The notes beneath the pieces were generated by a model. It was not told the origin of the DNA and did not search any database. It was given only the letters and a program-made list of their open reading frames with translations. From IMG/VR virus record IMGVR_UViG_2162886007_000004, positions 1 through 36,542 of that record: DNA of 36,542 nucleotides. One strand, given 5' to 3'. The position numbers and the translations under genes were made by a program. Source of the stretch: a virus. Positions 55 to 26,260 of this stretch are shown here, one piece after another (position 1 is the first letter of the stretch; each line of letters starts with the position of its first letter).

Positions 55-528
55 ATAAGCGATATTATAAATGTCCTCTTCGGCCTTTTTCCCGGTCTTG
101 CTGCGTCCTGATTTTGTTAAGCCATGTATTCCTTTTGCGCGGACCCAGTCAATTAAATTCATAAGAAGATCATGACCTGTTCCCGGGTTTTTACCTTTGG
201 CCCTGAATTGTGCTGCATAGGTTTTCCAGTCGGCCGGTAGTGTTGAAACATATTGTGCGGCATAACGTCCCGTTCCAAATTCAATAAAAGGCGCATAAAA
301 GGCATTGACTGTAATATGCTTTTCCAATAGTTTGGAATTATCGGGATTAATGGAAGCGCGTAAACCACCTAAATTAACCGGTGCCAGGTCTTTTGCTGTT
401 GTGGCGATATCTTTTGCGTTTTCGTTTAATACTTCATCGACCCTTTCAGCTAAAACCTTTTCCATCAACTTTAGTTTTTCGACGCCTTTTATTATTTCAG
501 CAATATCTATTGTGATCGAATTAGCCAT
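1..528 (-). CDS. HK97 gp10-like head-tail/tail component (5' part, continues over the join)
   Basis: The ATG is at 528-526 and the frame stays open for exactly 176 codons to base 1. On the circle it continues at 36488 and stops at 36417, giving about 199 residues. The protein has an N-terminal helix, then APVNLGGLRASI and FIEFGTG motifs, which are typical of the HK97 gp10/DUF family of head-tail or tail-completion proteins. It lies between the connector genes and the DUF3168-like tail terminator, the usual place for this family. Its start overlaps the stop of the upstream connector gene by 8 bases. The family is clear; the exact role in tail completion is inferred from position. Confidence 0.85.
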   Translation of the reverse strand, partial: MANSITIDIAEIIKGVEKLKLMEKVLAERVDEVLNENAKDIATTAKDLAPVNLGGLRASINPDNSKLLEKHITVNAFYAPFIEFGTGRYAAQYVSTLPADWKTYAAQFRAKGKNPGTGHDLLMNLIDWVRAKGIHGLTKSGRSKTGKKAEEDIYNIAYVIAIRILRHGIKRHSFLF

Positions 529-1198
529 AAACTATAACTTTATTATTTTGCTCCAGTGCCGGAATTAATCTTGTAAATACATACCTGAAACCACCGATTA
601 AAATAGTGCTCTCAAATACCTGGTCGGGTATTGCGCCCTGATTTGCCAGTGCATTAAACCAGGTATCTTTTTGAGTAAATGTTGCCGGGTATTTCAGCAC
701 TAAATAATTACCCACTGAAGCGGCTGTATAATCGGCATTTATATTACCTGTCGCCGTAAAATCTGCCTGCTGCTGGTAAGTAAATGCTTCCACATTGCCA
801 GCGTCGAAAGGTATAAGGCTCCAACCCCAGTAAACAGTTGATCCAGTAGGCGCCGGCGTTATTTGTTCAGCCCCTTCATTTGTTGTATATGCTTCAATAT
901 TTAAAAAGTTTTCGCGGCCCTCATTTTCGCGTATGATTGACTGAATAATCAGGTTACTACCCAGATAAACTATTTCATCCGTATTTATTAAGGGTCTGCT
1001 TTTTTCAGTGCGCACTTTTATACGAAATGCTTTTGTATAACTGATCTGTGCATTATCCAGTGTCTTGCTGCCGGAAGAGGTTTCTACCTTTGCCCAAATT
1101 GTCCATGATGATAAAGGAGACGCAATATTGCCGCCTGCCGGGTCCCGTGCGAACTCGTAGCGGTTTATTATTATGCGCCTGTTAAATTCACTTATCAT
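521..1198 (-). CDS. Head-tail joining protein (head closure) with extra C-terminal domain
   Basis: The protein has 225 residues. Residues 1-100 look like a phage head-tail joining/head closure protein (SPP1 gp16 type): it opens with an NRYEFARDPAGG-like strand, then short beta strands ending near INTDEIVYLG and a C-terminal strand pair. Family members are usually 100-120 residues. Here a further 120 residues follow, rich in aromatic and small residues (YWGWSLIPFDAG) and predicted beta. The ATG overlaps the stop of the gp6-like gene by four bases (ATGA). It probably seals the connector before the tail docks; the extension may be exposed on the neck. The assignment rests on the N-terminal half and gene order. 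Confidence 0.7.
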   Translation of the reverse strand: MISEFNRRIIINRYEFARDPAGGNIASPLSSWTIWAKVETSSGSKTLDNAQISYTKAFRIKVRTEKSRPLINTDEIVYLGSNLIIQSIIRENEGRENFLNIEAYTTNEGAEQITPAPTGSTVYWGWSLIPFDAGNVEAFTYQQQADFTATGNINADYTAASVGNYLVLKYPATFTQKDTWFNALANQGAIPDQVFESTILIGGFRYVFTRLIPALEQNNKVIVYG

Positions 1199-1707
1199 GT
1201 TACTCTTCTGTATGGTTTTAGTAATTTCTTTACTGCCGGGCTTAAACCGGTTCCTTCCTCTGTTTCGTCGCCCCTGTGCTCATATAGGGAAGCGACTTCC
1301 ATCAGGATCGCCGTTTTATATAGTTGCTCAAGATTAGCGGCGGATTCCCCGGCCGTATATTTTGCCCTTACTTCTGTACATGGATCCAGCGCCTTAAATT
1401 TTTCATATTTCAAGGTATATTCGACCGGTTCACCTGTATTGCTGTTTGTTACTTCCGTTATTGTATTCACCGGGCCATAAGGCAATCTTATTTCGTCCAG
1501 GCCAATAAAAAGAAATGCGGTAATGGTTCGCGGAATTAAAGACATGTTTAAAAAGCCTTCGCATAGTTGCCGCGCTGCAGTGATAAGCGATGTTAATAAT
1601 GTATCATCGTCGGGAACATCGATCTTTAGCCAGCTCTTTGCATCAGCCAGCGTCACCGGTTCCACGCCTTCAGCGGTAAATGTTTTATCAAGTAGCAGGT
1701 TATCCAT
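1195..1707 (-). CDS. Head-tail connector, gp6-like adaptor
   Basis: The protein has 170 residues when started at the ATG 1707-1705 (MDNLLLDKTF). The open frame runs further upstream, but this start overlaps the glycosyltransferase stop by only 8 bases, like other junctions here. The order EPVTLADAKSWLKID, DDDTLLTSLITAARQLCEGF and later ILMEVASLYEHRGD is the classic helical signature of the phage gp6-like/DUF3199 adaptor family, which forms a ring beneath the portal. The C-terminal KKLLKPYRRV end is also usual. It is followed by the head closure gene, as expected in HK97-type neck modules. Confidence 0.85.
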   Translation of the reverse strand: MDNLLLDKTFTAEGVEPVTLADAKSWLKIDVPDDDTLLTSLITAARQLCEGFLNMSLIPRTITAFLFIGLDEIRLPYGPVNTITEVTNSNTGEPVEYTLKYEKFKALDPCTEVRAKYTAGESAANLEQLYKTAILMEVASLYEHRGDETEEGTGLSPAVKKLLKPYRRVT

Positions 1708-3493: not shown

Positions 3494-4044
3494 CTTTTTA
3501 CATATTTGGCGATTGTCATTCTTTGTTGTAATTCGTCTTTTACCCGGCCATCTTTTAGAATAATAAAACCCCTATCGGCAAAATCTTCGGGCGTATAAAA
3601 AGAAAGATGCTTTTCCAGTTCATTACCATGTTCCGCGCCCTGTGCCACAAATTCGCCCGGTGTGCTTATCAGGAGTAGCCCGTTCGGTTTCAGATAAAGT
3701 TTAAGCGCATCGGCTATCGCCAGCCCCTCATTACGGAGAAAATGTTCTATCACATCCAAAAACAGGATCGTATCATAGCTGCCATAATTTTCAAACTCAA
3801 GCAAATGCGTTTTTATATCCCGGATATAAACCTTGTTGTAGTGCTGCCAATTGGGATTCTGATAATTATTAAAGCTTTCCACGCCTGTTAATAATACTTT
3901 TCTATCACCACCCAAATCACAATATTGCCTGATTACCGCCCCATAAAACCCGGTGCCACAACCCAGATCCAAAACCGTTAAAGGGTTCTTACTATTTAGT
4001 TCACATGCAATAATTGAAACAATGGAGAATGAAGAAATCGGCAT
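3490..4044 (-). CDS. Class I SAM-dependent methyltransferase
   Basis: The protein has 184 residues. Motif I (VLDLGCGTG) is at residues 24-32, motif II acidic region near the VESFNN strand, motif IV LFLDVIEH, and post-motif LLLISTPGE, all in the order of the Rossmann methyltransferase fold (Methyltransf_11/23 type). The short N-terminus before motif I suggests a minimal catalytic domain with no DNA-recognition part, so a small molecule, sugar or protein is a likelier substrate than DNA. It starts about 16 bases after a strong terminator behind the capsid gene, so it must depend on read-through or an unseen promoter. With the GT4 gene it may form a decoration pathway. Confidence 0.85.
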   Translation of the reverse strand: MPISSFSIVSIIACELNSKNPLTVLDLGCGTGFYGAVIRQYCDLGGDRKVLLTGVESFNNYQNPNWQHYNKVYIRDIKTHLLEFENYGSYDTILFLDVIEHFLRNEGLAIADALKLYLKPNGLLLISTPGEFVAQGAEHGNELEKHLSFYTPEDFADRGFIILKDGRVKDELQQRMTIAKYVKR

Positions 4045-4116: not shown

Positions 4117-5256
4117 TTAATTAACTATGAAGGCATCAGTTTGCTCAATTACCAGTACCTCACGGGCTTCAACGCGAACAGTGATAAGGTTCTTTATTAC
4201 GTTATCCTGATCCTGCTCAAAGAATTCCACCTTTAGCGGATCTGCCACCGCAATTGTGGCATAAGTCCAGTCGCCGGTAATCGTTTTGCCTGTTGGAATC
4301 CAGCTTGTAGGATAGAATGGTATGCCCGCAATCCTGCTTGCGCCAAGTGCATCGGTAACGATCACACCGGGAGCACCATATGAAGCGCCTGCACCGCCTT
4401 TGACCAGCATCAACTCAGCCCATTTTGCATATGTGCCAACAATGCCATTTGGAACATAACCAGCACCGCCAAGTGAAGCGATATTATTGATTAATTGTTC
4501 TGCATAGTTTGCACCGGCTGCTCCTGGTGTGCCGGTTGCCACTGCTGCCAAATCACCGTAGAACTGTATATTTTCAGCTTTGGTAAAATCGCGCAATAAA
4601 AGACGCGGGAGCCATGTTTGAAGGAAAGGAAGATCCTGCAGCATTTGTTTTGTAATGCGCACATGACCGGCGATATAATCGGCTTTAAAATCCACCATGC
4701 CAATATTATAATCAAGTTGGGGTTTGGCCACATTTTCACCAACGCGGGAAACGCTGCCCGTAACGCCTGTTTCGCGGGGCAGGGTTATCCATCCCGTTTC
4801 AGTTCTTACTACTTCGCATAAGTCGCGGAAATTATAACCGGCGCTCCCTGTCTTTGGGGAAAAATCAAGATAGGAACGAACAGCGCCGCCGGTCAGGTGC
4901 GTTGCTTCGGTCATGATGGCCTTCATTTCAAAGGCATGACCTTTTCCTTTGCGGGTTGTGCGGATGCTGTCAAAGTTTTCTGCCAGTGCCTCACGCAGTT
5001 TATTCTTAAATGTTCCCTGGTCGCCGTCGGGCAGAGGTACGGCATCTTTGCGTTTTATCAGTTCATTTAATGCCTTTTGGTTGGCGTCATCGCGCTGATC
5101 TTTTGTTTGCTGCCACTCTTTAAAAGCGGCTTCGCTGGCTTCAAAATCGGCTTTTATTTGTTCAATGGTTTGTTTCTGTGAAGTAAAATCGCGCTGAATT
5201 CCTTTAATGCCGTCATGGATCGGCTGTAATTCGGGATCGATATTCGGATTGTCCAT
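4117..5256 (-). CDS. HK97-fold major capsid protein with N-terminal scaffold (delta) domain
   Basis: The protein has 379 residues. Residues 1-95 are a charged coiled coil (KQTIEQIKADFEASEAAFK), matching the delta/scaffold domain removed by the prohead protease. The mature domain begins after a basic stretch near residue 105-115 (RKGKGHAFEMKAIM). It contains the E-loop and spine-helix pattern of HK97 capsids (VRTETGWITLPRE, HVRITKQMLQDLPFLQTWL) and ends with an AREVLVIEQTDAFIVN strand. It lies directly after the protease and overlaps it by 44 bases in another frame. A strong terminator follows. Confidence 0.95.
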   Translation of the reverse strand: MDNPNIDPELQPIHDGIKGIQRDFTSQKQTIEQIKADFEASEAAFKEWQQTKDQRDDANQKALNELIKRKDAVPLPDGDQGTFKNKLREALAENFDSIRTTRKGKGHAFEMKAIMTEATHLTGGAVRSYLDFSPKTGSAGYNFRDLCEVVRTETGWITLPRETGVTGSVSRVGENVAKPQLDYNIGMVDFKADYIAGHVRITKQMLQDLPFLQTWLPRLLLRDFTKAENIQFYGDLAAVATGTPGAAGANYAEQLINNIASLGGAGYVPNGIVGTYAKWAELMLVKGGAGASYGAPGVIVTDALGASRIAGIPFYPTSWIPTGKTITGDWTYATIAVADPLKVEFFEQDQDNVIKNLITVRVEAREVLVIEQTDAFIVN

Positions 5257-6004
5257 CTTGCGGAAATTTAAAAAGTTGAATAATTGGTTTTGTATCCCAT
5301 CTATTCACCTTTGATTTGTTATCCGGCTTAAGTGGGGCAATCGTCCCGGCTTGAGTGGTTGCGTTTGAAAGGTCAATAATTGTTTGGAAAAGCTGTTTAT
5401 TGTAGATTAGTAAGCTTTCTATTGTTTCATCAGATATATCTGCATTAGTGCAAAATCTTTCTATAGCTACCTGTTTTTTTATCAGGTTATCAATATATAG
5501 TTTTTTGTCCTGTGCCTTCAGCCCGGTTACCGGTGTCAATGAATTAGCACCCCAGGCTGTGAGCGATGATCCTTCCCAAAGTTGCAACTCTGTTAGCTTT
5601 GTTACAGTTTCATCAGTAGTATCTTTTTCCCATTTAATCACGCGGTAACCTATTGAATGCTCCGTGATCAGTTCGCTTTCCACCATCTTTACAAATTCTT
5701 TACCGATCGTGTGCGATCCTATTTGTGATTCATAATAAAGCCCGGTAGTATCTTCTTTTAGTGTGAATATTTTGCCGAGTGGTTGCTCTGGTCTGTGATT
5801 CAATAAATGTTTTATACGGGGCTGCCCGCTATCCGGCCCGCGATCTGCAATGGTCTTTACATAAGCTCCCGGCATAATTATATCACCGTCAGAATCTTTA
5901 TTGCCGAAGGCGGAAAAATAACCGGTAACAATCCCTTTTTTGGAATCTGCATCTTTGAACGATGCGGCAAGAACAGCAGTTTTATAATTATAGATGTTTT
6001 CCAT
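5213..6004 (-). CDS. HK97-type prohead protease
   Basis: The protein has 263 residues from the ATG at 6004-6002 (MENIYNYKTA); the frame extends a further seven codons to a TTG that is unlikely to be used. The core SKKGIVTGYFSAFGNKDSDGD, LLNH (His70) and EHSIGY (Ser117) are the conserved elements of caudoviral prohead (herpesvirus-like) serine proteases, with His and Ser spaced as in HK97 gp4. It cleaves the capsid scaffold during maturation. The C-terminal 100 residues are a helical, poorly conserved tail overlapping the capsid gene start. Its promoter appears to lie immediately upstream. Confidence 0.93.
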   Translation of the reverse strand: MENIYNYKTAVLAASFKDADSKKGIVTGYFSAFGNKDSDGDIIMPGAYVKTIADRGPDSGQPRIKHLLNHRPEQPLGKIFTLKEDTTGLYYESQIGSHTIGKEFVKMVESELITEHSIGYRVIKWEKDTTDETVTKLTELQLWEGSSLTAWGANSLTPVTGLKAQDKKLYIDNLIKKQVAIERFCTNADISDETIESLLIYNKQLFQTIIDLSNATTQAGTIAPLKPDNKSKVNRWDTKPIIQLFKFPQDGQSEYRSRITADP

Positions 6005-6005
6005 T

Positions 6006-6026
6006 TTTGGGAAATGGTTTCCCAAA
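6006..6026. promoter_or_regulatory. Perfect 9-bp dyad at the capsid/protease start
   Basis: TTTGGGAAA (6006-6014), a 3-base spacer and TTTCCCAAA (6018-6026) form a perfect inverted repeat. It overlaps the TACATTTG box and ends two bases from the protease ATG. It could be an operator at the DNA level, or in mRNA a hairpin at the very 5' end that controls translation. Confidence 0.6.
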
Positions 6027-6030
6027 TGTA
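6023..6030 (-). promoter_or_regulatory. Candidate promoter (-7 box TACATTTG) for protease-capsid
   Basis: Read on the minus strand, 6030-6023 is TACATTTG, a full match to the Bacteroidota -7 consensus TAnnTTTG. The start site would be near 6018, about 14 bases before the protease ATG. No clear TTTG is seen at -33. A dedicated promoter makes sense because a terminator (6201-6235) separates these genes from the upstream late genes. Confidence 0.5.
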
Positions 6031-6074: not shown

Positions 6075-6096
6075 GGGCAGCGCAAAAACGCCGCCC
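6075..6096 (-). other. Hairpin in the gap before the protease gene
   Basis: GGGCAGCG (6075-6082) pairs with CGCCGCCC (6089-6096) around a six-base loop, with one position that is G.U on the minus strand RNA and A.C on the plus strand. It has only a short run of T after it on the minus strand, so it is a weak terminator at best. The rest of 6097-6200 holds no gene I can support. Confidence 0.4.
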
Positions 6097-6208
6097 GATA
6101 GTTAGCTAATCTGTGAATTAAACCCTTATGATTGATGTTGCTAAATTAGAAAGGAATTCTCACTTTTACTTTAAGACCCTTTTAAGTTGGGCAATGGCAT
6201 AAAAAAAG

Positions 6209-6235
6209 AAAGATAGCAGTTCGGCTACTATCTTT
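6209..6235 (-). terminator. Intrinsic terminator AAAGATAG/CTATCTTT
   Basis: An 8-bp stem (6209-6216 with 6228-6235) with a loop of 11 and, on the minus strand, CTTTTTTT directly after. It ends the antisense RNA of element copy 1 and also any late transcript from gp7. The same stem sequence is used at 9236-9262. Its right arm contains TATCTTTG on the plus strand, a possible -7 box for the peptide transcript. Confidence 0.75.
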
Positions 6236-6240
6236 GCTTT

Positions 6241-6330
6241 GTGAAACTGGAAATTCACGCTGGAAAGTTCAGTTTGAAATTGGAGATTTCATTTGAACTG
6301 ATAAAAGAGTTTATGGAAAAGCTCTTTTAG
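6241..6330 (+). CDS. Small amphipathic peptide, copy 1 (candidate type I toxin-like)
   Basis: A GTG-started frame of 29 codons plus TAG on the otherwise empty plus strand. The peptide starts MKLEIHAGKF and ends KEFMEKLF, with hydrophobic and charged residues alternating. A second copy at 9139-9225 on the minus strand encodes a peptide of the same length without gaps. Ten of 28 aligned positions are identical and about ten more are conservative, and both end in TAG. The box TATCTTTG (6229-6236) would place transcription start about at the GTG, implying a leaderless mRNA. The whole frame is buried in RNA secondary structure (6241-6367). The peptide homology is visible; function as a toxin is inference. 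Confidence 0.5.
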   Translation: MKLEIHAGKFSLKLEISFELIKEFMEKLF

Positions 6331-6367
6331 GCGTGAGGGGGCGGTTCGCCGCCCCTTCCGGTTTCAC
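6241..6367 (+). other. Multi-branched structured RNA/peptide element, copy 1
   Basis: Five stems can be drawn: P1 6241-6250/6358-6367 (10 bp), P2 6254-6261/6330-6337, P3 6266-6271/6294-6299 with 6275-6280/6286-6291, P4 6302-6312/6319-6329 (11 bp), and P5 6338-6344/6349-6355 (GGGGCGG/CCGCCCC, TTCG loop). P1 brings the 3' end back onto the first codons of the peptide frame. Four pairs are G.U when read as plus-strand RNA and would be A.C on the minus strand, favouring the plus strand as the folded molecule. Confidence 0.65.
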
Positions 6368-6374
6368 AAATATA
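6367..6374 (-). promoter_or_regulatory. Candidate -7 box TATATTTG, antisense RNA of copy 1
   Basis: Minus strand 6374-6367 reads TATATTTG, an exact TAnnTTTG match, directly at the outer stem of the element. Position and spacing mirror the better promoter of copy 2. No TTTG is found 19-21 bases upstream. Confidence 0.4.
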
Positions 6375-6401: not shown

Positions 6402-7241
6402 CTATAACTTTACCGGCAGCCCCCTTGCATCCCTGATAACATTAAAGCCTACTGTACAGCGGCATTGAATCACGTCACCCGGATCGGCTTTTGGATCGCC
6501 TGGCTGCATCACCTCATCAAAACCGCCGTTTAACATGGGTACTAAAAACGGCTGATCCATTGGAACCGTCTTTCCATCCATAGCAACATGACTATAATTA
6601 TCACGCGGAATCCTGCGCGTCCTATTATCGCGGGCAGCAATCCAAAGTTTTTCAGTTTCAAAGCCGGTCTTTTTAGCCCCTTGTACGGCTCCGAAGTTTG
6701 CAGCTTTTATTGTCTCCGTTCTTGCTATTACAATGGCACGTTTCGCCGGGAAATCATCTACAAGCATACTTTTTGCAACGTCCTGAATAGAACGGCCCGT
6801 TTGCTGTGCGTCAATCAACTGTTTTAGGATCCACTCTTTCATGGTGTCGTTTATCTCTGAAACCATGCTTAAATTATGCAGCCGGAAATATGCTTCTATT
6901 ATTGCAATCATTTCCTCATTGTAGCCTATTGGCATTAATGCTTTTTTGCCTTCAGCCTGCCGGGTCAACAGATCACCCTCTTTCTTTATTACCTGGTAAA
7001 TGCGCCCGCCCCAGATCCTGCCTGCATCAATATAAATATTTCTTATCGTTATCATAATACCGGAAGGCTTCAGCATGTTTGCATCTAATTGCGCAATTGC
7101 CCGCTGAATAGTAGGCTCATCCGTTGCATTGCGGATCATTTCTTTTAAGTTGGCATGGATCTTAGGTTTCCAGGCCTTTACGCTGGAAACGGTGAAGCGT
7201 TTGTAATTGGTGTAAAGGCTGGCAATGTCGGCGGCGTTCAT
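6402..7241 (-). CDS. SPP1 gp7/Mu F-like minor head (head morphogenesis) protein
   Basis: The protein has 279 residues. The C-terminal half carries the family's conserved core: an AIVIARTET helix, a KLWIAARDNRTR strand region, a DG-V-P-hydrophobic stretch and the closing cysteine pair in VIQCRCTVGF (about residue 263). This is the phage Mu F/SPP1 gp7 domain, a portal-associated protein thought to act in head assembly or DNA ejection. The N-terminal half is helical. It lies between portal and protease, as in many HK97-type phages, though separated from both by accessory DNA. Confidence 0.9.
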   Translation of the reverse strand: MNAADIASLYTNYKRFTVSSVKAWKPKIHANLKEMIRNATDEPTIQRAIAQLDANMLKPSGIMITIRNIYIDAGRIWGGRIYQVIKKEGDLLTRQAEGKKALMPIGYNEEMIAIIEAYFRLHNLSMVSEINDTMKEWILKQLIDAQQTGRSIQDVAKSMLVDDFPAKRAIVIARTETIKAANFGAVQGAKKTGFETEKLWIAARDNRTRRIPRDNYSHVAMDGKTVPMDQPFLVPMLNGGFDEVMQPGDPKADPGDVIQCRCTVGFNVIRDARGLPVKL

Positions 7242-8793: not shown

Positions 8794-9057
8794 TTACCAT
8801 TTTGCAATTTTATCATTGTCTTTGTGCATCGTATCAGTTATCCATGACGTAAAAACCATTAGAAACCATATAAAAACACCGATCCATGAACAAATAGCAA
8901 CAAATATTGCAAATTTTCTTTCACCAACTGTCCACGGCATTGGTTTTTCATATGTCCGGTTTTTGTCTTTTATCCGCCACTGTTTGTATAAATAATACGC
9001 TAACGGAATTCCGGTTAAATAAATAAGGATACGCGTTAAAACATCAACTGCGGTCAT
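8794..9057 (-). CDS. Small membrane protein with two transmembrane helices
   Basis: The protein has 87 residues. Hydrophobic helices lie at about residues 4-22 (VLTRILIYLTGIPLAYYLY) and 48-70 (FAIFVAICSWIGVFIWFLMV), joined by a basic loop and followed by a charged tail. Size and topology would fit a class II holin, but there is no endolysin next to it. It is the first gene after element copy 2, which would lie in its 5' leader on the minus strand. Confidence 0.65.
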   Translation of the reverse strand: MTAVDVLTRILIYLTGIPLAYYLYKQWRIKDKNRTYEKPMPWTVGERKFAIFVAICSWIGVFIWFLMVFTSWITDTMHKDNDKIAKW

Positions 9058-9061
9058 AAAT

Positions 9062-9093
9062 TTTGAAGGTTTATAATTATTGCTTTAGATTTG
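9062..9093 (+). promoter_or_regulatory. Consensus promoter TTTG-N20-TAGATTTG on the plus strand
   Basis: TTTG at 9062-9065 and TAGATTTG at 9086-9093 are separated by exactly 20 bases, matching both boxes and the spacing of the Bacteroidota housekeeping promoter. The start site would be near 9097-9098, at the first base of the outer stem of the structured element. This is the best promoter in the capsid region and it points against all nearby genes. Confidence 0.7.
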
Positions 9094-9095
9094 CA

Positions 9096-9227
9096 GTAAA
9101 ATCGGGGCGGACGAAACCGCCCCAATCAGGGCAATTAGCTAAAAGAATTTGTCTAAAAACTCTTTCAGCACCTTCAAACTAACTTTAATAAGTAGCTTGA
9201 AGTTTTTAACCTTGATCTTGATTTTAC
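9096..9227 (-). other. Multi-branched structured RNA/peptide element, copy 2
   Basis: Stems equivalent to copy 1 are present in reverse orientation: P1 9220-9227/9096-9103 (8 bp perfect), P2 9210-9216/9125-9131, P3 9197-9202/9172-9177 plus an inner stem, P4 9157-9168/9139-9150 (12 bp with two G.U on the minus strand), and P5 9104-9110/9117-9123 (GGGGCGG/CCGCCCC). P1, P2 and P3 differ in sequence from copy 1 but keep pairing, which is compensatory change. P5 and part of P4 are conserved in sequence. Confidence 0.65.
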
Positions 9228-9237
9228 CACAAAACAA
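9139..9237 (-). CDS. Small amphipathic peptide, copy 2 (possibly start-defective)
   Basis: The frame ends with TAG at 9141-9139 and aligns without gaps to the peptide of copy 1. It has KIKIKVKNFK near its start and KEFLDKFF at its end, more cationic than copy 1. The GTG that would match the copy 1 start is out of frame because of two extra bases; the only start in frame is TTG at 9237. Either the copy is inactive or it uses that TTG. The shared peptide pattern and equal length support coding origin. Confidence 0.4.
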   Translation of the reverse strand: MFCGKIKIKVKNFKLLIKVSLKVLKEFLDKFF

Positions 9238-9262
9238 AGATAGCCGTCAAAAAGCTATCTTT
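9236..9262 (+). terminator. Intrinsic terminator AAAGATAGC/GCTATCTTT
   Basis: A perfect 9-bp stem (9236-9244 with 9254-9262), followed on the plus strand by TGTTTTTTAT. It ends the antisense RNA of copy 2. On the minus strand the tail is TGTTTTG, so it may also reduce transcription leaving the portal gene. Confidence 0.8.
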
Positions 9263-9279
9263 TGTTTTTTATACCTATT

Positions 9280-10734
9280 TTAATTAATCGGCGCAGGCAT
9301 TGAGAAGCTCAATTCATCAATCAGACTATAACCCTGCTTTACCAAAGGAAGATTCATGTTTTCATTATCAATGGCATCCCATTTGAAGAGCTCCCTCATT
9401 TCATTGCCTGTTGGCGTAATCGGTAAAGCTGCCAGCACATTGGCAAGCTGCTGGTAATCATCTTGCAATTCGGTAATGCCGCTTATATCCACATCAACAA
9501 ACCTTTTGCGCTTATCCGGCCAATTGGAGACGGCCACAAGTTCACTATTGAATTTATCGCGGAAGGTGTAGGCAAGGGGCAGGCAAATATTTGTGTACAT
9601 CTGCTTTATCATTTCCTTTACATTGCTTTCCGTTGCCGCTGCTTCACTATTAAACAGAATCGTAGAAATTCCACCGTAAATATTGCAAAGCCTTTTAAAG
9701 TCCATGTTTTGCAAACCGGAAAGTTCCATATCAGCCAGCTTTAGCCCGATAGGAATATAACCTTTTTCACCGGCGCTGAAGAATGGCGCTCCCTTATTCT
9801 CAGCTTTGCGGATATAAGAAAAAAAGTGTTGCCGCATGAGGTCTAAAGAATCCTGCGAAACCTCTTCATTGCCTAATGTCTTATCATAAACGATGCCGGG
9901 CAAACCGCCATTTTGCAGTTGTGAAACGCTGGCATCATCTGCACTGGTCAGCCGCGTTAATAACTTACGCGCTGGCACCAGCGGCGAAAGCCCGCGAAAG
10001 CGGGAATAATTACTCGTTGCATCATAACCATAAGAGTTTTCAGGGTTGAATTTTTTGATCTGTATAATATCATCCGGCGGTATGCTTTTATAAATCGATT
10101 TACCACCCACTATAAATTCATAGCTGGTCACACTTTGCGGATAATCGCGGCTAATATGCAGGATCACGTTTGAGGGCGGCAAGATATGTAATTCAATCAC
10201 AGCTCCGGCACTCCCACCCATATCGGGGCGGTATTTGTAAATAAACACCTCACCGCATAACAGGTAATAACAGAAAGCCGCTAAGAAAAATTCCTGCTGT
10301 GACTGGTAAGGGTTCGGCTTTGCCAACAGTTCCGCCAATGGATCCGTTTCGGGTGCTTCGTCCAATGCTTTTGCCTGCATTAGCATAATATCATAAATGC
10401 CTTTACTGCTGTAAAATTGGCGGCTGGTAAGGGTTCTAAGCTTCGCCGCCTTACGCTCATCTTTCTGGTAATAAGTATAAAACGGAATCAATGATGTTGT
10501 TTCGGCGATCTTATTCACAACGGCATAAACCTGGTCATTATTGATATAATTGTTTGCTGCACTTGCGGCGGTGTGATCGGGATAAATCGGCGGGTTTATT
10601 GCCCCACGTCCCCAAACCTGTTCTGAAAGCATAGCAGTTAGTGCGGGCGAAAATATATTTTGAATTGCTTTTAATTGCAGTTCGAGACCGGTTATTTTTC
10701 TTTTCCCGAAGAGGTCGGGTAGCAATATTTTCAC
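9280..10734 (-). CDS. Portal protein
   Basis: The protein has 484 residues and starts at GTG (KILLPDLFGKRK); the nearby ATG is out of frame and stops at once. The core has features of the HK97-type phage portal family: AAANNYINNDQVYAVVNKIAE, an EFFLAAFCYYLLCGEVFIYKY stretch, IIQIKKFNPENSYGY and GLSPLVPARKLL, then an N-G-G-L-P-G wing segment and a long stem/crown region. It forms the dodecameric DNA entry pore. It lies downstream of TerL as usual, with several small genes between them. Confidence 0.92.
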   Translation of the reverse strand: MKILLPDLFGKRKITGLELQLKAIQNIFSPALTAMLSEQVWGRGAINPPIYPDHTAASAANNYINNDQVYAVVNKIAETTSLIPFYTYYQKDERKAAKLRTLTSRQFYSSKGIYDIMLMQAKALDEAPETDPLAELLAKPNPYQSQQEFFLAAFCYYLLCGEVFIYKYRPDMGGSAGAVIELHILPPSNVILHISRDYPQSVTSYEFIVGGKSIYKSIPPDDIIQIKKFNPENSYGYDATSNYSRFRGLSPLVPARKLLTRLTSADDASVSQLQNGGLPGIVYDKTLGNEEVSQDSLDLMRQHFFSYIRKAENKGAPFFSAGEKGYIPIGLKLADMELSGLQNMDFKRLCNIYGGISTILFNSEAAATESNVKEMIKQMYTNICLPLAYTFRDKFNSELVAVSNWPDKRKRFVDVDISGITELQDDYQQLANVLAALPITPTGNEMRELFKWDAIDNENMNLPLVKQGYSLIDELSFSMPAPIN

Positions 10735-17969: not shown

Positions 17970-18534
17970 ACCAATGTTTTTGGCTGTTTAAAGAAGTATT
18001 ATTTTTATTATTTTCTGTTGTTTCCTCCGCGCTTTCTGGCTGTTCGCGCGTTTCATTTAATTTCATTTCATTTCTTTTTATTTCTTTTCTTTTCTTTTGT
18101 GCACTTTCCTCTGAGTTTACTTCGGGCTGGCTGGTAGTTTCCTCTGAGGAAATCAAATAGGACTCTAAAAGGGTACTTTTGCGATGAAGGGACGAACAAA
18201 CGTTTATAAACCTTTTTTGAATTCCTTTTGATGTGAGGATTTTATGCCGGGTGAACATTTCCTGCGAAAAAAAATCGCGTCTTAATGATTCATCAATGAT
18301 TGCCTGGATTTTTACACGTGTAATCATTTTACCCAAACCGGCGGCAAATAATATTTCTGCGTCCTCATCCCATTTTATAAAGGCACCATTCCGGTAAATG
18401 CGGCATAGCAGGATAAAGAGTATTGATGCAGCTATTAGCCCACATTTAGCCGTGATAAATCTTATCTTTTCATCTTCGAAGATGTCGGTGTCTACCGGGA
18501 AATAATCCAGCCCATTTTTCATCGGTCGCCCCAT
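17905..18534 (-). CDS. DUF4373/Lin1244-type replication initiator-like protein
   Basis: The protein has 209 residues. Residues 1-110 have the DUF4373 signature (KNGLDYFPVDTDIFEDEKIR, then FAAGLGKMITRVKIQAIIDE), a winged-helix domain related to DnaD-like replication initiators and common in Bacteroidota phages and mobile elements. A charged low-complexity linker (KKRKEIKRNEMKLNETRE) and a short C-terminal piece follow (WYDLTDEETAAAAKRLHRIFN). The linker DNA (18049-18107) is a pyrimidine/A+T tract. DNA at 18137-18191 is repeated at 26117-26171. Likely role: origin binding and loading of host helicase. Confidence 0.8.
   Translation of the reverse strand: MGRPMKNGLDYFPVDTDIFEDEKIRFITAKCGLIAASILFILLCRIYRNGAFIKWDEDAEILFAAGLGKMITRVKIQAIIDESLRRDFFSQEMFTRHKILTSKGIQKRFINVCSSLHRKSTLLESYLISSEETTSQPEVNSEESAQKKRKEIKRNEMKLNETREQPESAEETTENNKNNTSLNSQKHWYDLTDEETAAAAKRLHRIFNG
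18049..18107. other. Pyrimidine-rich repeat tract inside the initiator gene (origin candidate)
   Basis: The plus strand is a run of TTTCATTT, TTTCTTTT and similar short units, strongly asymmetric (T and C only, apart from a few A). It encodes the charged linker of the DUF4373 protein. Lambda-type initiators carry their origin in the same place. No clear DnaA-type or iteron sites were seen. Confidence 0.3.
18137..18191. repeat. Diverged repeat, copy in the initiator gene
   Basis: These 55 bases align without gaps to 26117-26171, with about ten differences (about 82% identity). Both begin with GTTTCCTC and share AAAAGGGTACTTTTGC. In this copy the sequence is coding and encodes LESYLISSEETT. 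Confidence 0.75.
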
Positions 18535-24529: not shown

Positions 24530-26098
24530 ATGATCGCAGTAGGTTACGCAAGGTTAAGCGATAAAGATAGTAGCAGCAACAGCATTAAAAGCCAGATGCG
24601 CCGCATTGAAGAATATTGTGAGCGCAACAAACTAACCCTTTTAAAAATCTTTGTTGACGATGGCAAAAGCGGATGGACATTTGACCGCCCCGGCTTCATA
24701 GACCTGGAAAACTTTTGCAAGAAAGAGAAGTCGGTTCAATATCTTATCATTCCGCACTTTGACCGCTTCAGCCGCACAGATCCCATCGACGCAATGGTTA
24801 AGGAACGATATTTCCGCGACAAGTTGAATGTAAAAGTGTTGCAGGTGAGTGAGCCGATTGACCTGGATACCAATAACCCTACTTACGTAATCGTAAGGTT
24901 CATGCAGGCTTTTGCGAGCAATGAAGAACGCAATCGTATAGTTGACCGTACAATGACAGGAATGCGTTATAGCCTTACACAGGGTAGGTATTGTAGCATG
25001 GCTCCTTATGGCTATAAGAATAGCCGGGATGAAAACGGAAAGCCGCTGATTATTCCCGATGAGGAAAGGGCACATTTGATAAAGTTCATATTCAGGGAAT
25101 ACTTGCGCGGCAATGGTATAGAAGAGGTAAAGCGCATGGCTAAAGTAAATGGTTACACGCAAGGGGGTAAATCCGCAATAGCCAGGGTATTAACTAATCC
25201 GGTTTACGCCGGAATGATTAACGTGCCAGCATATAAGCACACACCGGCCAGGCTCGTAAAAGGCATTCACGCACCTTTAATATCAGAAAACGATTACTGG
25301 ATGACACAGGAAAAAATAACCGGCAAAAATCACCGCACCCATAACCGGGATGAGGTGCCGCTTCGTGGTGTTCTCCGCTGCCATTGCGGAAGATATATGA
25401 CAGCCGCCCCAAGCAAGGGCAAGAGCGGCAAACACTATTGGTATTACTTTTGCGAATCACACCGCAAAATAAACCTTAGCGCCAACAGGTTACATGCTCA
25501 ATTTGAAGATATACTGGATCATCTCAGCATCCCTGAAAATGATCTTATTATATTGCGCGATTCGGCGATACAGGAATTGAATAATTATATCAGCGACAGG
25601 ACAGGCGAATTAATGCGTATAGGTATACAGATAGAACATATTCAAAAGGCAATTGAAGCGATAGAAGAAAAATACCTGCTTCAGGCCGACATAACCCCGG
25701 CGATTTTCAACAAACTTGTAAAAGTAAAACGCATTGAGCTAAGCGAATTACAGGCAAAGCAGGCAGCATTAAAAACGGATACAGTAGAGCATTACAATCG
25801 TCTTTATTTCCTATTTAGTAAGCTTTCCGATCTGAAATCTCAATGGCTATCTTTAGACCTCACAGCCAAACAATTCTTTATTAAACAGGTGTTCGGGCTA
25901 AATCTCACTTACAGAGACGGGGTATATCGAACACCTTTTATCCATCCCCTGTTTGCGCTAAAAGGCTTATCTGATAGGGGTTTGCCGTTAGTGATAGAAA
26001 CAAAAACAGCTACCGAAGTAGCTGTTAATTTAGAATGTGCCCCAGGCGGGAACTTACTCGAACACCTGCTATCATTGGCCAATGTTTTTGCAGCATAA
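24530..26098 (+). CDS. Large serine recombinase (phage integrase)
   Basis: The protein has 522 residues. The catalytic resolvase domain starts GYARLSDKD with the likely nucleophile Ser10 and Arg8, and has the DRFSR motif at 78-82. The recombinase domain follows (HLIKFIFREYLRGNGIEEV, then GYTQGGKSAIARVLTNPVYAG). The zinc-ribbon domain has CHCGRYM at about 283-289 and a Cys in YYFCESHR near 308. A long coiled coil lies at about 355-440. The order and size are those of phage integrases of the phiC31/Bxb1 class. It integrates the circular genome at attB and, with a directionality factor, excises it. Its leader resembles that of the repressor gene. Confidence 0.93.
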   Translation: MIAVGYARLSDKDSSSNSIKSQMRRIEEYCERNKLTLLKIFVDDGKSGWTFDRPGFIDLENFCKKEKSVQYLIIPHFDRFSRTDPIDAMVKERYFRDKLNVKVLQVSEPIDLDTNNPTYVIVRFMQAFASNEERNRIVDRTMTGMRYSLTQGRYCSMAPYGYKNSRDENGKPLIIPDEERAHLIKFIFREYLRGNGIEEVKRMAKVNGYTQGGKSAIARVLTNPVYAGMINVPAYKHTPARLVKGIHAPLISENDYWMTQEKITGKNHRTHNRDEVPLRGVLRCHCGRYMTAAPSKGKSGKHYWYYFCESHRKINLSANRLHAQFEDILDHLSIPENDLIILRDSAIQELNNYISDRTGELMRIGIQIEHIQKAIEAIEEKYLLQADITPAIFNKLVKVKRIELSELQAKQAALKTDTVEHYNRLYFLFSKLSDLKSQWLSLDLTAKQFFIKQVFGLNLTYRDGVYRTPFIHPLFALKGLSDRGLPLVIETKTATEVAVNLECAPGGNLLEHLLSLANVFAA

Positions 26099-26116
26099 AC
26101 CCCCACCCAGCCCCCA

Positions 26117-26171
26117 GTTTCCTCCGAGGAAACTAAAAAGTACTCAAAAAGGGTACTTTTGCTACGAAGAG
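26117..26171. repeat. Diverged repeat copy downstream of the recombinase, with two dyads
   Basis: It aligns without gaps to 18137-18191 in the initiator gene (about 82%). Here it contains GTTTCCTC-C-GAGGAAAC (26117-26133), a perfect dyad, and AAAAGTAC/GTACTTTT, which may act as a terminator between the convergent recombinase and tail operons. Read on the minus strand it gives a fragment homologous to the DUF4373 C-terminal part (KSTLFEYFLVSSEETG), so it looks like the remnant of a second such gene. Confidence 0.7.
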
Positions 26172-26260
26172 ATACGTAGTCTATTAACAACTGTTTACGA
26201 AACATTACGTAATACACTAACGCCAGTTTACGAAAAGATACGTAGCAGGCTTTTTAAATA
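26162..26260. repeat. Three tandem 33-bp repeats
   Basis: Units start at 26162, 26195 and 26228, exactly 33 bases apart. Each begins with an 18-bp core of the form (C/T)TACGAA-n5-TACGTA(G/A), which is itself nearly palindromic. The units are otherwise diverged. The plus strand could encode an 11-residue repeat (VYETLRNTLTP, VYEKIRSRLFK), but no start supports it as a gene. Confidence 0.65.

Follow-up and report, generated by a model that had tools for sequence, protein, structure and literature searches.

A small cassette occurs twice, in opposite orientations, in the phage DNA analysed here, and the question it raises is what the two strands of each copy encode. The window, meaning the whole stretch of 36,542 nt that was analysed, corresponds to a virus record and has an end repeat of 54 nt. 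Judged by its genes, which include those for a serine recombinase, an HK97-type capsid, a Mu_F head protein, a prohead protease and a portal, it represents a temperate siphophage, and its promoter type and phage relatives point to Bacteroidota as the host group. The minus strand carries nearly all of the genes. Copy 1 lies between the Mu_F gene (6402–7241) and the protease gene (5213–6025), and copy 2 between the portal gene (9280–10734) and an 87-codon gene (8794–9057), with minus-strand genes on both sides. A sequence-only reading had placed an antisense RNA gene on one strand of copy 2; we call this strand S (the plus strand for copy 2, the minus strand for copy 1) and its complement A. All sequences are metagenomic contigs, and the cassette is known from three sequence lineages only.

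Table 1. Coordinates of predicted features of the two cassette copies in the window
Feature	Position	Strand	Details
S2 promoter	9062–9093	+	−33 box TTTG 9062–9065, N20, −7 box TAGATTTG 9086–9093; predicted +1 at 9098
S2 RNA	9098–9270	+	~173 nt; P1, GC hairpin H1, P2 enclosing H2 and H3, then terminator
S2 intrinsic terminator	9236–9270	+	9-bp stem and T tail
A2 peptide frame	9139–9228	−	GKIKIKVKNFKLLIKVSLKVLKEFLDKFF, then stop; no in-frame ATG or GTG at start
A2 −7 box	9235–9242	−	TATCTTTG; also terminator 3′ arm; predicted +1 at 9230, GTG out of register
Copy 1 cassette	6198–6374	−	S1 −7 box TATATTTG 6374–6367; predicted +1 at 6362; RNA to ~6202; terminator 6235–6209
A1 candidate peptide gene	6241–6330	+	GTG at predicted +1; MKLEIHAGKFSLKLEISFELIKEFMEKLF, then stop
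A1 −7 box	6229–6236	+	TATCTTTG; sets +1 exactly on GTG at 6241

The sequence-only reading had described strand S of copy 2 as a complete transcription unit facing the nearby genes, and the sequence bears this out. The promoter consensus was taken from PMC7366714 and PMC9723704, with the sigma-A TAnnTTTG box set at −12 to −5 (PMC9723704). Both proposed promoter boxes are present at N20 spacing, and the predicted +1 falls inside the outer stem, as had been claimed. The proposed 9-bp terminator (AAAGATAGC-N9-GCTATCTTT, 9236–9262) is followed by the T tail TGTTTTTTAT and ends the unit at ~9270, giving an RNA that opposes neighbours located exclusively on the minus strand. The promoter match alone is no evidence, because the full motif, found once in the window, has a chance expectation there of 1.23 (spacing 19–21) or 2.02 (spacing 18–22). 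It carries weight only via its context, since copy 1 and the related contigs L051 and L052 each have a TAnnTTTG box at the equivalent place, so that all four copies have a −7 box at the same position (TATATTTG, TAGATTTG and, twice, TAAATTTG). By eye, a TTTG −33 box at N20 spacing was absent from the other copies; nor was this box found in promoters of Flavobacterium johnsoniae, according to work cited in PMC7366714. Across the window, TAnnTTTG boxes numbered 24 on the plus strand and 10 on the minus strand against 48 expected in total, indicating depletion on the strand with almost all genes. Only two places in the window combine a perfect stem of 8 bp or longer with a strong T tail, namely the S terminators of both copies.

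Strand S of copy 2 is predicted to fold into a multi-branch structure (−55.9 kcal/mol, z = −7.9) that none of 200 shuffles equalled. An RNA model built from copy 1 alone (R1) scored copy 2, on which it was not trained, at 52.4 bits; a second model (R2), which was trained on copy 2, scored it at 148.5 bits. R1 also matched L051 (966–1147) and L052 (7–188) at 55–56 bits (E ~1e-14). In a covariance-model-based alignment of the four sequences (A8), which was fitted to the structure of copy 1 and so favours the fold, 24 of 62 pairs had changed on both sides compared to 9.8 in shuffles and 1–4 with slid partners, and 0 of 500 shuffles reached any of five measures. Both the magnitude of the covariation and the controls with slid partners speak against an alignment artefact. 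Strand assignment of the fold was informed by its non-Watson–Crick pairs. Read on S, the core of copy 2, L051 and L052 contained five A.C pairs each and two, one and one G.U pairs, plus four to five other mismatches each. Since an A.C pair on S is a G.U pair on A, the core fold fits A better than S. Minimum-energy core folds of three sequences held 6, 7 and 5 G.U pairs on A compared to 0, 1 and 1 on S, with energies of −63.3, −59.8 and −54.4 on A and −51.1, −45.1 and −39.2 on S; z-scores of the two strands were similar once the terminator was included. The T tail of the terminator is on S, as are its G.U pairs in copy 1, L051 and L052. Because the G.U bias reverses between core and terminator, conservation concerns the A-strand RNA in the core and the S-strand RNA in the terminator. 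The fold proposed by the sequence-only reading is thus upheld by its z-score and by covariation, but the assignment of the core to S is not, as A provides the better fit.

Strand A contains a frame of 28 codons (KLEIHAGKFSLKLEISFELIKEFMEKLF in copy 1, KIKIKVKNFKLLIKVSLKVLKEFLDKFF in copy 2 and EIKLRVRNFKLSIKLSFRFIKELLDKFF in L051) that is open in all copies, without gaps, and stops at the same position (TAG, TAG and TAA, respectively). The frame is free of indels, whilst the flanks have them. Differences at the first, second and third codon positions were 15/5/17 between copies 1 and 2, and with L051 15/6/16–17 for copy 1 and 8/4/12–13 for copy 2. Columns were shuffled with base pairs as units, because compensated pairs could mimic a codon-position bias. 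In three pairwise tests, which share sequences and are not independent, peptide similarity went beyond these pair-preserving shuffles (p 0.0001–0.0003) and second-position changes were few (p 0.0007, 0.003 and 0.03). All three peptides display amphipathic periodicity, of beta type over residues 1–16 and helix type over residues 16–28; their charge varies (0, +7 and +5). None of the three has a transmembrane helix (GRAVY 0.07–0.35, best 15-residue mean 0.6–1.0), and comparison to Pfam and PHROG gave no family match. The proposed kinship of copy 2 with copy 1, and of the peptide frames opposed to them, is supported.

How such a frame would be translated is less straightforward. In both copies, the predicted A start coincides precisely with a GTG; in L051, it lies near ATGATG. 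In copy 1, the GTG is in frame and would give a leaderless mRNA, making it the only one of four versions with an in-frame start. In the other three versions (copy 2, L051 and L052), the start triplet does not share the register of the conserved frame, which is the main weakness of reading the frame as a translated peptide. It was correctly noted beforehand that the copy 2 frame has no ATG or GTG in frame at its start; further upstream, within the −7 box of strand A, there is an in-frame TTG. However, the accompanying idea that copy 2 is a decayed toxin is too simple, given that its frame is protein-like relative to both copy 1 and L051. Nor is there any obvious sign that copy 2 lost its start recently, as L051 and L052 also have theirs out of register. 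For copy 2 and L051 we further considered programmed frameshifting, but inspection revealed no canonical slippery heptamer and the idea was dropped. The putative A-strand promoter has no −33 box, and its TATCTTT is at the same time part of the terminator stem; L051 has TATCTTTA. Most of the conservation of this −7 box is accounted for by the terminator stem, which makes the box weak evidence. No terminator was seen at the 3′ end of A.

Pairing between the strands was modelled for cognate and non-cognate partners. The S and A RNAs of copy 1 co-folded at −263.7 compared to −118.9 for the parts, a gain of ~145 kcal/mol, and their duplex was predicted at −251.8 kcal/mol. The suggestion that the copy 2 antisense RNA could act on copy 1 was not supported, as complementary runs between S2 and A of copy 1 were at most 9 nt and their co-fold (−115.6) yielded no gain over the self-folds (−115.6). 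A bare S2:A1 duplex was better than shuffles (−89.5 vs −46.4). According to these models, the two copies should be largely insulated from each other, unless loop-contact kinetics matter.

The distribution of the cassette was assessed by several searches. DNA pattern and portal searches of IMG/VR identified it only in two near-identical contigs of the same phage; five pattern-scan matches (L008 and L043–L046) lay inside genes and were dismissed as chance. A capsid-based scan recovered relatives at 36–69 % capsid identity. In L051, the cassette sits between the Mu_F and protease genes, as copy 1 does, and the L052 contig shows the protease side only. L050 has the terminator after its Mu_F gene (36 bits with R1) with the core missing, L053 carries a 2-kb set of other genes in the copy 1 slot, and L005 and L010 carry other small genes there. 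Slot content thus varies among relatives, and the cassette is therefore an accessory module of a variable slot, set among the head genes of a temperate phage operon. Within the peptide frame, L051 matches copy 2 at more nucleotides (62/87) than it matches copy 1 (49/87), even though copy 1 has the slot of L051, suggesting that sequence was exchanged between slots or that copy 1 changed faster. No relative in genomes emerged from a portal alignment. Searches with R1, the portal and the capsid, each against 395 Bacteroidota genomes, returned nothing; the R1 search scored six candidates per genome and had low sensitivity. Scanning 84,980 genomes for the peptide pattern gave 25 matches, all attributable to chance by context, and distant blastn and tblastn searches of phage and plasmid records returned nothing convincing (best tblastn match at chance level, E = 10).

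Several further features of these slots and of the window were recorded. In L005, two small opposed frames (3526–3989, minus strand) fill the Mu_F/protease slot, indicating that it takes different opposed cassettes. In L050, a TnpB-type gene (OrfB_IS605, Cas12f1-like TNB; 441–1592, minus strand) is present on the opposite strand in the copy 2 slot after the portal gene; a link to TnpB guide RNAs was dropped, since by eye the end of this gene is unlike the cassette. Between copy 1 and the protease gene of the window there is a GC-rich hairpin, GGGCGGCG-TTTTT-GCGCTGCCC (~6079–6105, minus strand), of a kind resembling H1. Just upstream of the protease start is a palindrome, TTTGGGAAACCATTTCCCAAA (~6003–6030, minus strand), with variant forms kept in L049, L050 and L051. 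This palindrome, which is adjoined in the window and in L049 by TACATTTG, is a candidate operator of the capsid operon. A 57-nt direct repeat (18136–18192 and 26116–26172, 84 % identical) holds TTTCCTC-GAGGAAA and AAAGGGTACTTTTGC; its second copy begins 18 bp past the serine recombinase gene (stop at 26098), and the repeat could be an operator or an attachment-related site.

Our preferred reading, to which we give just short of an even chance, is that each copy is an antisense module organised like a type I toxin–antitoxin system, whereby S regulates a structured short mRNA, A. S would be a short RNA transcribed from a sigma-A-type promoter and ended by its intrinsic terminator, the hairpin of which would double as the start region of A. 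A would make, or would once have made, a short mRNA for a peptide of 28–29 residues comprising a beta-amphipathic stretch and then an amphipathic helix. The 5′ end of this RNA, including the GTG in copy 1, would pair with its own 3′ end in P1 and so stay silent. Given its full complementarity to the cognate A, S would base-pair with this RNA and destroy or block it. As the peptide start of copy 2 is out of register, this copy most likely yields mostly S and structured A RNA, with little peptide. Fold, covariation, strand bias, coding signature and terminator were computed; from these we infer transcription and translation of A and its regulation by S, and toxicity from the organisation alone, by analogy. 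An antisense pair is the simplest account of the fold, strand bias, frame and terminator together. More specifically, it is possible, if somewhat doubtful, that the cassettes represent a new type I family of Bacteroidota phages, in which one hairpin would serve both as terminator of the antitoxin RNA and as promoter region of a leaderless GTG mRNA, the peptide would be amphipathic rather than transmembrane, and the out-of-register start would be a recurrent silent state.

We also weighed explanations that dispense with a peptide or with the antisense relationship. The pair may be non-coding, with the fold of A, or of both strands, functional in itself, e.g. in adjusting the expression of head genes at operon junctions, with the frame as an untranslated relic. 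Three of the four versions lack an in-frame start, covariation is strong, and copy 1 and L051 are positioned between the Mu_F head gene and the protease and capsid genes, all of which favour this view. We nonetheless regard it as rather unlikely, given that copy 2 and L051, neither of which has an in-frame start, still share the coding signature when base pairing is held fixed, and that indels have accumulated in the flanks but not in the frame. Alternatively, S could merely be the structured 3′ end of the head operon, consisting of a terminator and an upstream stem-loop domain, and copy 2 a stray duplicate. Retention of the terminator by L050 at the equivalent place without the core, and the co-directionality of copy 1 and L051 with the operon, are in keeping with this, yet copy 2 opposes the operon from a promoter of its own and all four copies have a −7 box upstream of the core. 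A terminator also needs neither conservation of the core on A nor a protein-like frame, and we consider this explanation improbable.

As a third alternative, the cassette could be inert, a palindromic repeat or miniature mobile element with a second copy in inverted orientation; this would account for two inverted copies in one genome, for presence and absence among relatives and for the greater similarity of L051 to copy 2 than to the copy in its own slot. We disfavour it as very improbable, as compensated pairs, G.U bias on one strand and codon-position bias call for selection on RNA and protein, and no transposase gene was seen beside either copy.

Under the preferred reading of an antisense module, comparison to known systems is informative. 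A search of the window against Rfam gave no match above the gathering cut-off, and a permissive scan gave chance-level matches only. Relative to the usual features of type I systems, an overlapping antisense RNA gene with its own promoter and terminator is present by sequence in both copies and L051. The small gene expected of such systems (<~60 codons, with a start) is represented by the 28-codon protein-like frame, with an in-frame start in copy 1 only. Sequestration of the mRNA 5′ end, as in hok and aapA, is predicted from P1, which pairs the A1 GTG region with the 3′ end. The hydrophobic transmembrane peptide is lacking; such a toxin is usual but not universal in type I, with SymE and RalR differing (PMC12390103). 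The layout would work like hok/Sok or aapA/IsoA, but we do not file the cassette in any family, because a transmembrane helix is lacking and an in-frame start codon is confined to copy 1. It would share with these two systems a short mRNA in which the 3′ end closes off the 5′ end, an interaction that in AapA renders the full-length mRNA inert (PMC6733600), and a fully complementary antisense RNA with its own promoter. In contrast, no sequence relation to them is known, the cassette peptide is amphipathic rather than transmembrane, and the GTG lies at the extreme 5′ end (leaderless) without a Shine–Dalgarno sequence, with an in-frame start in one of four versions. TisB of TisB/IstR-1, a 29-residue amphiphilic toxin, is matched by the cassette peptide in length and amphipathic character (PMC8309996), although the N-terminal half of the latter has beta rather than helix periodicity, and the TisB antitoxin acts in trans with limited complementarity, whereas S is cis-encoded. 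Within Bacteroidota, seven putative type I-like pairs of Bacteroides thetaiotaomicron likewise combine Bacteroidota-type promoters, overlapping RNAs and a small frame (PMC7366714); these are chromosomal and are likened here by description, not by sequence. The DonS family of Bacteroides also comprises cis-encoded antisense RNAs (PMC7366714), but DonS represses susC-type genes and the cassette opposes no such gene. Type I loci were described in 2025 as known only from Proteobacteria, Firmicutes and Tenericutes, a restriction blamed on search bias towards known families (PMC12390103). If our reading is true, a covarying, protein-conserving phage pair with Bacteroidota-type promoters would offer a defined, testable example and a search seed of structure and peptide pattern, and a case of compact gene overlap in which the same bases hold fold, peptide, terminator and start region. 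In sum, the cassette resembles an antisense pair of the toxin–antitoxin style, from a family that has yet to be described.
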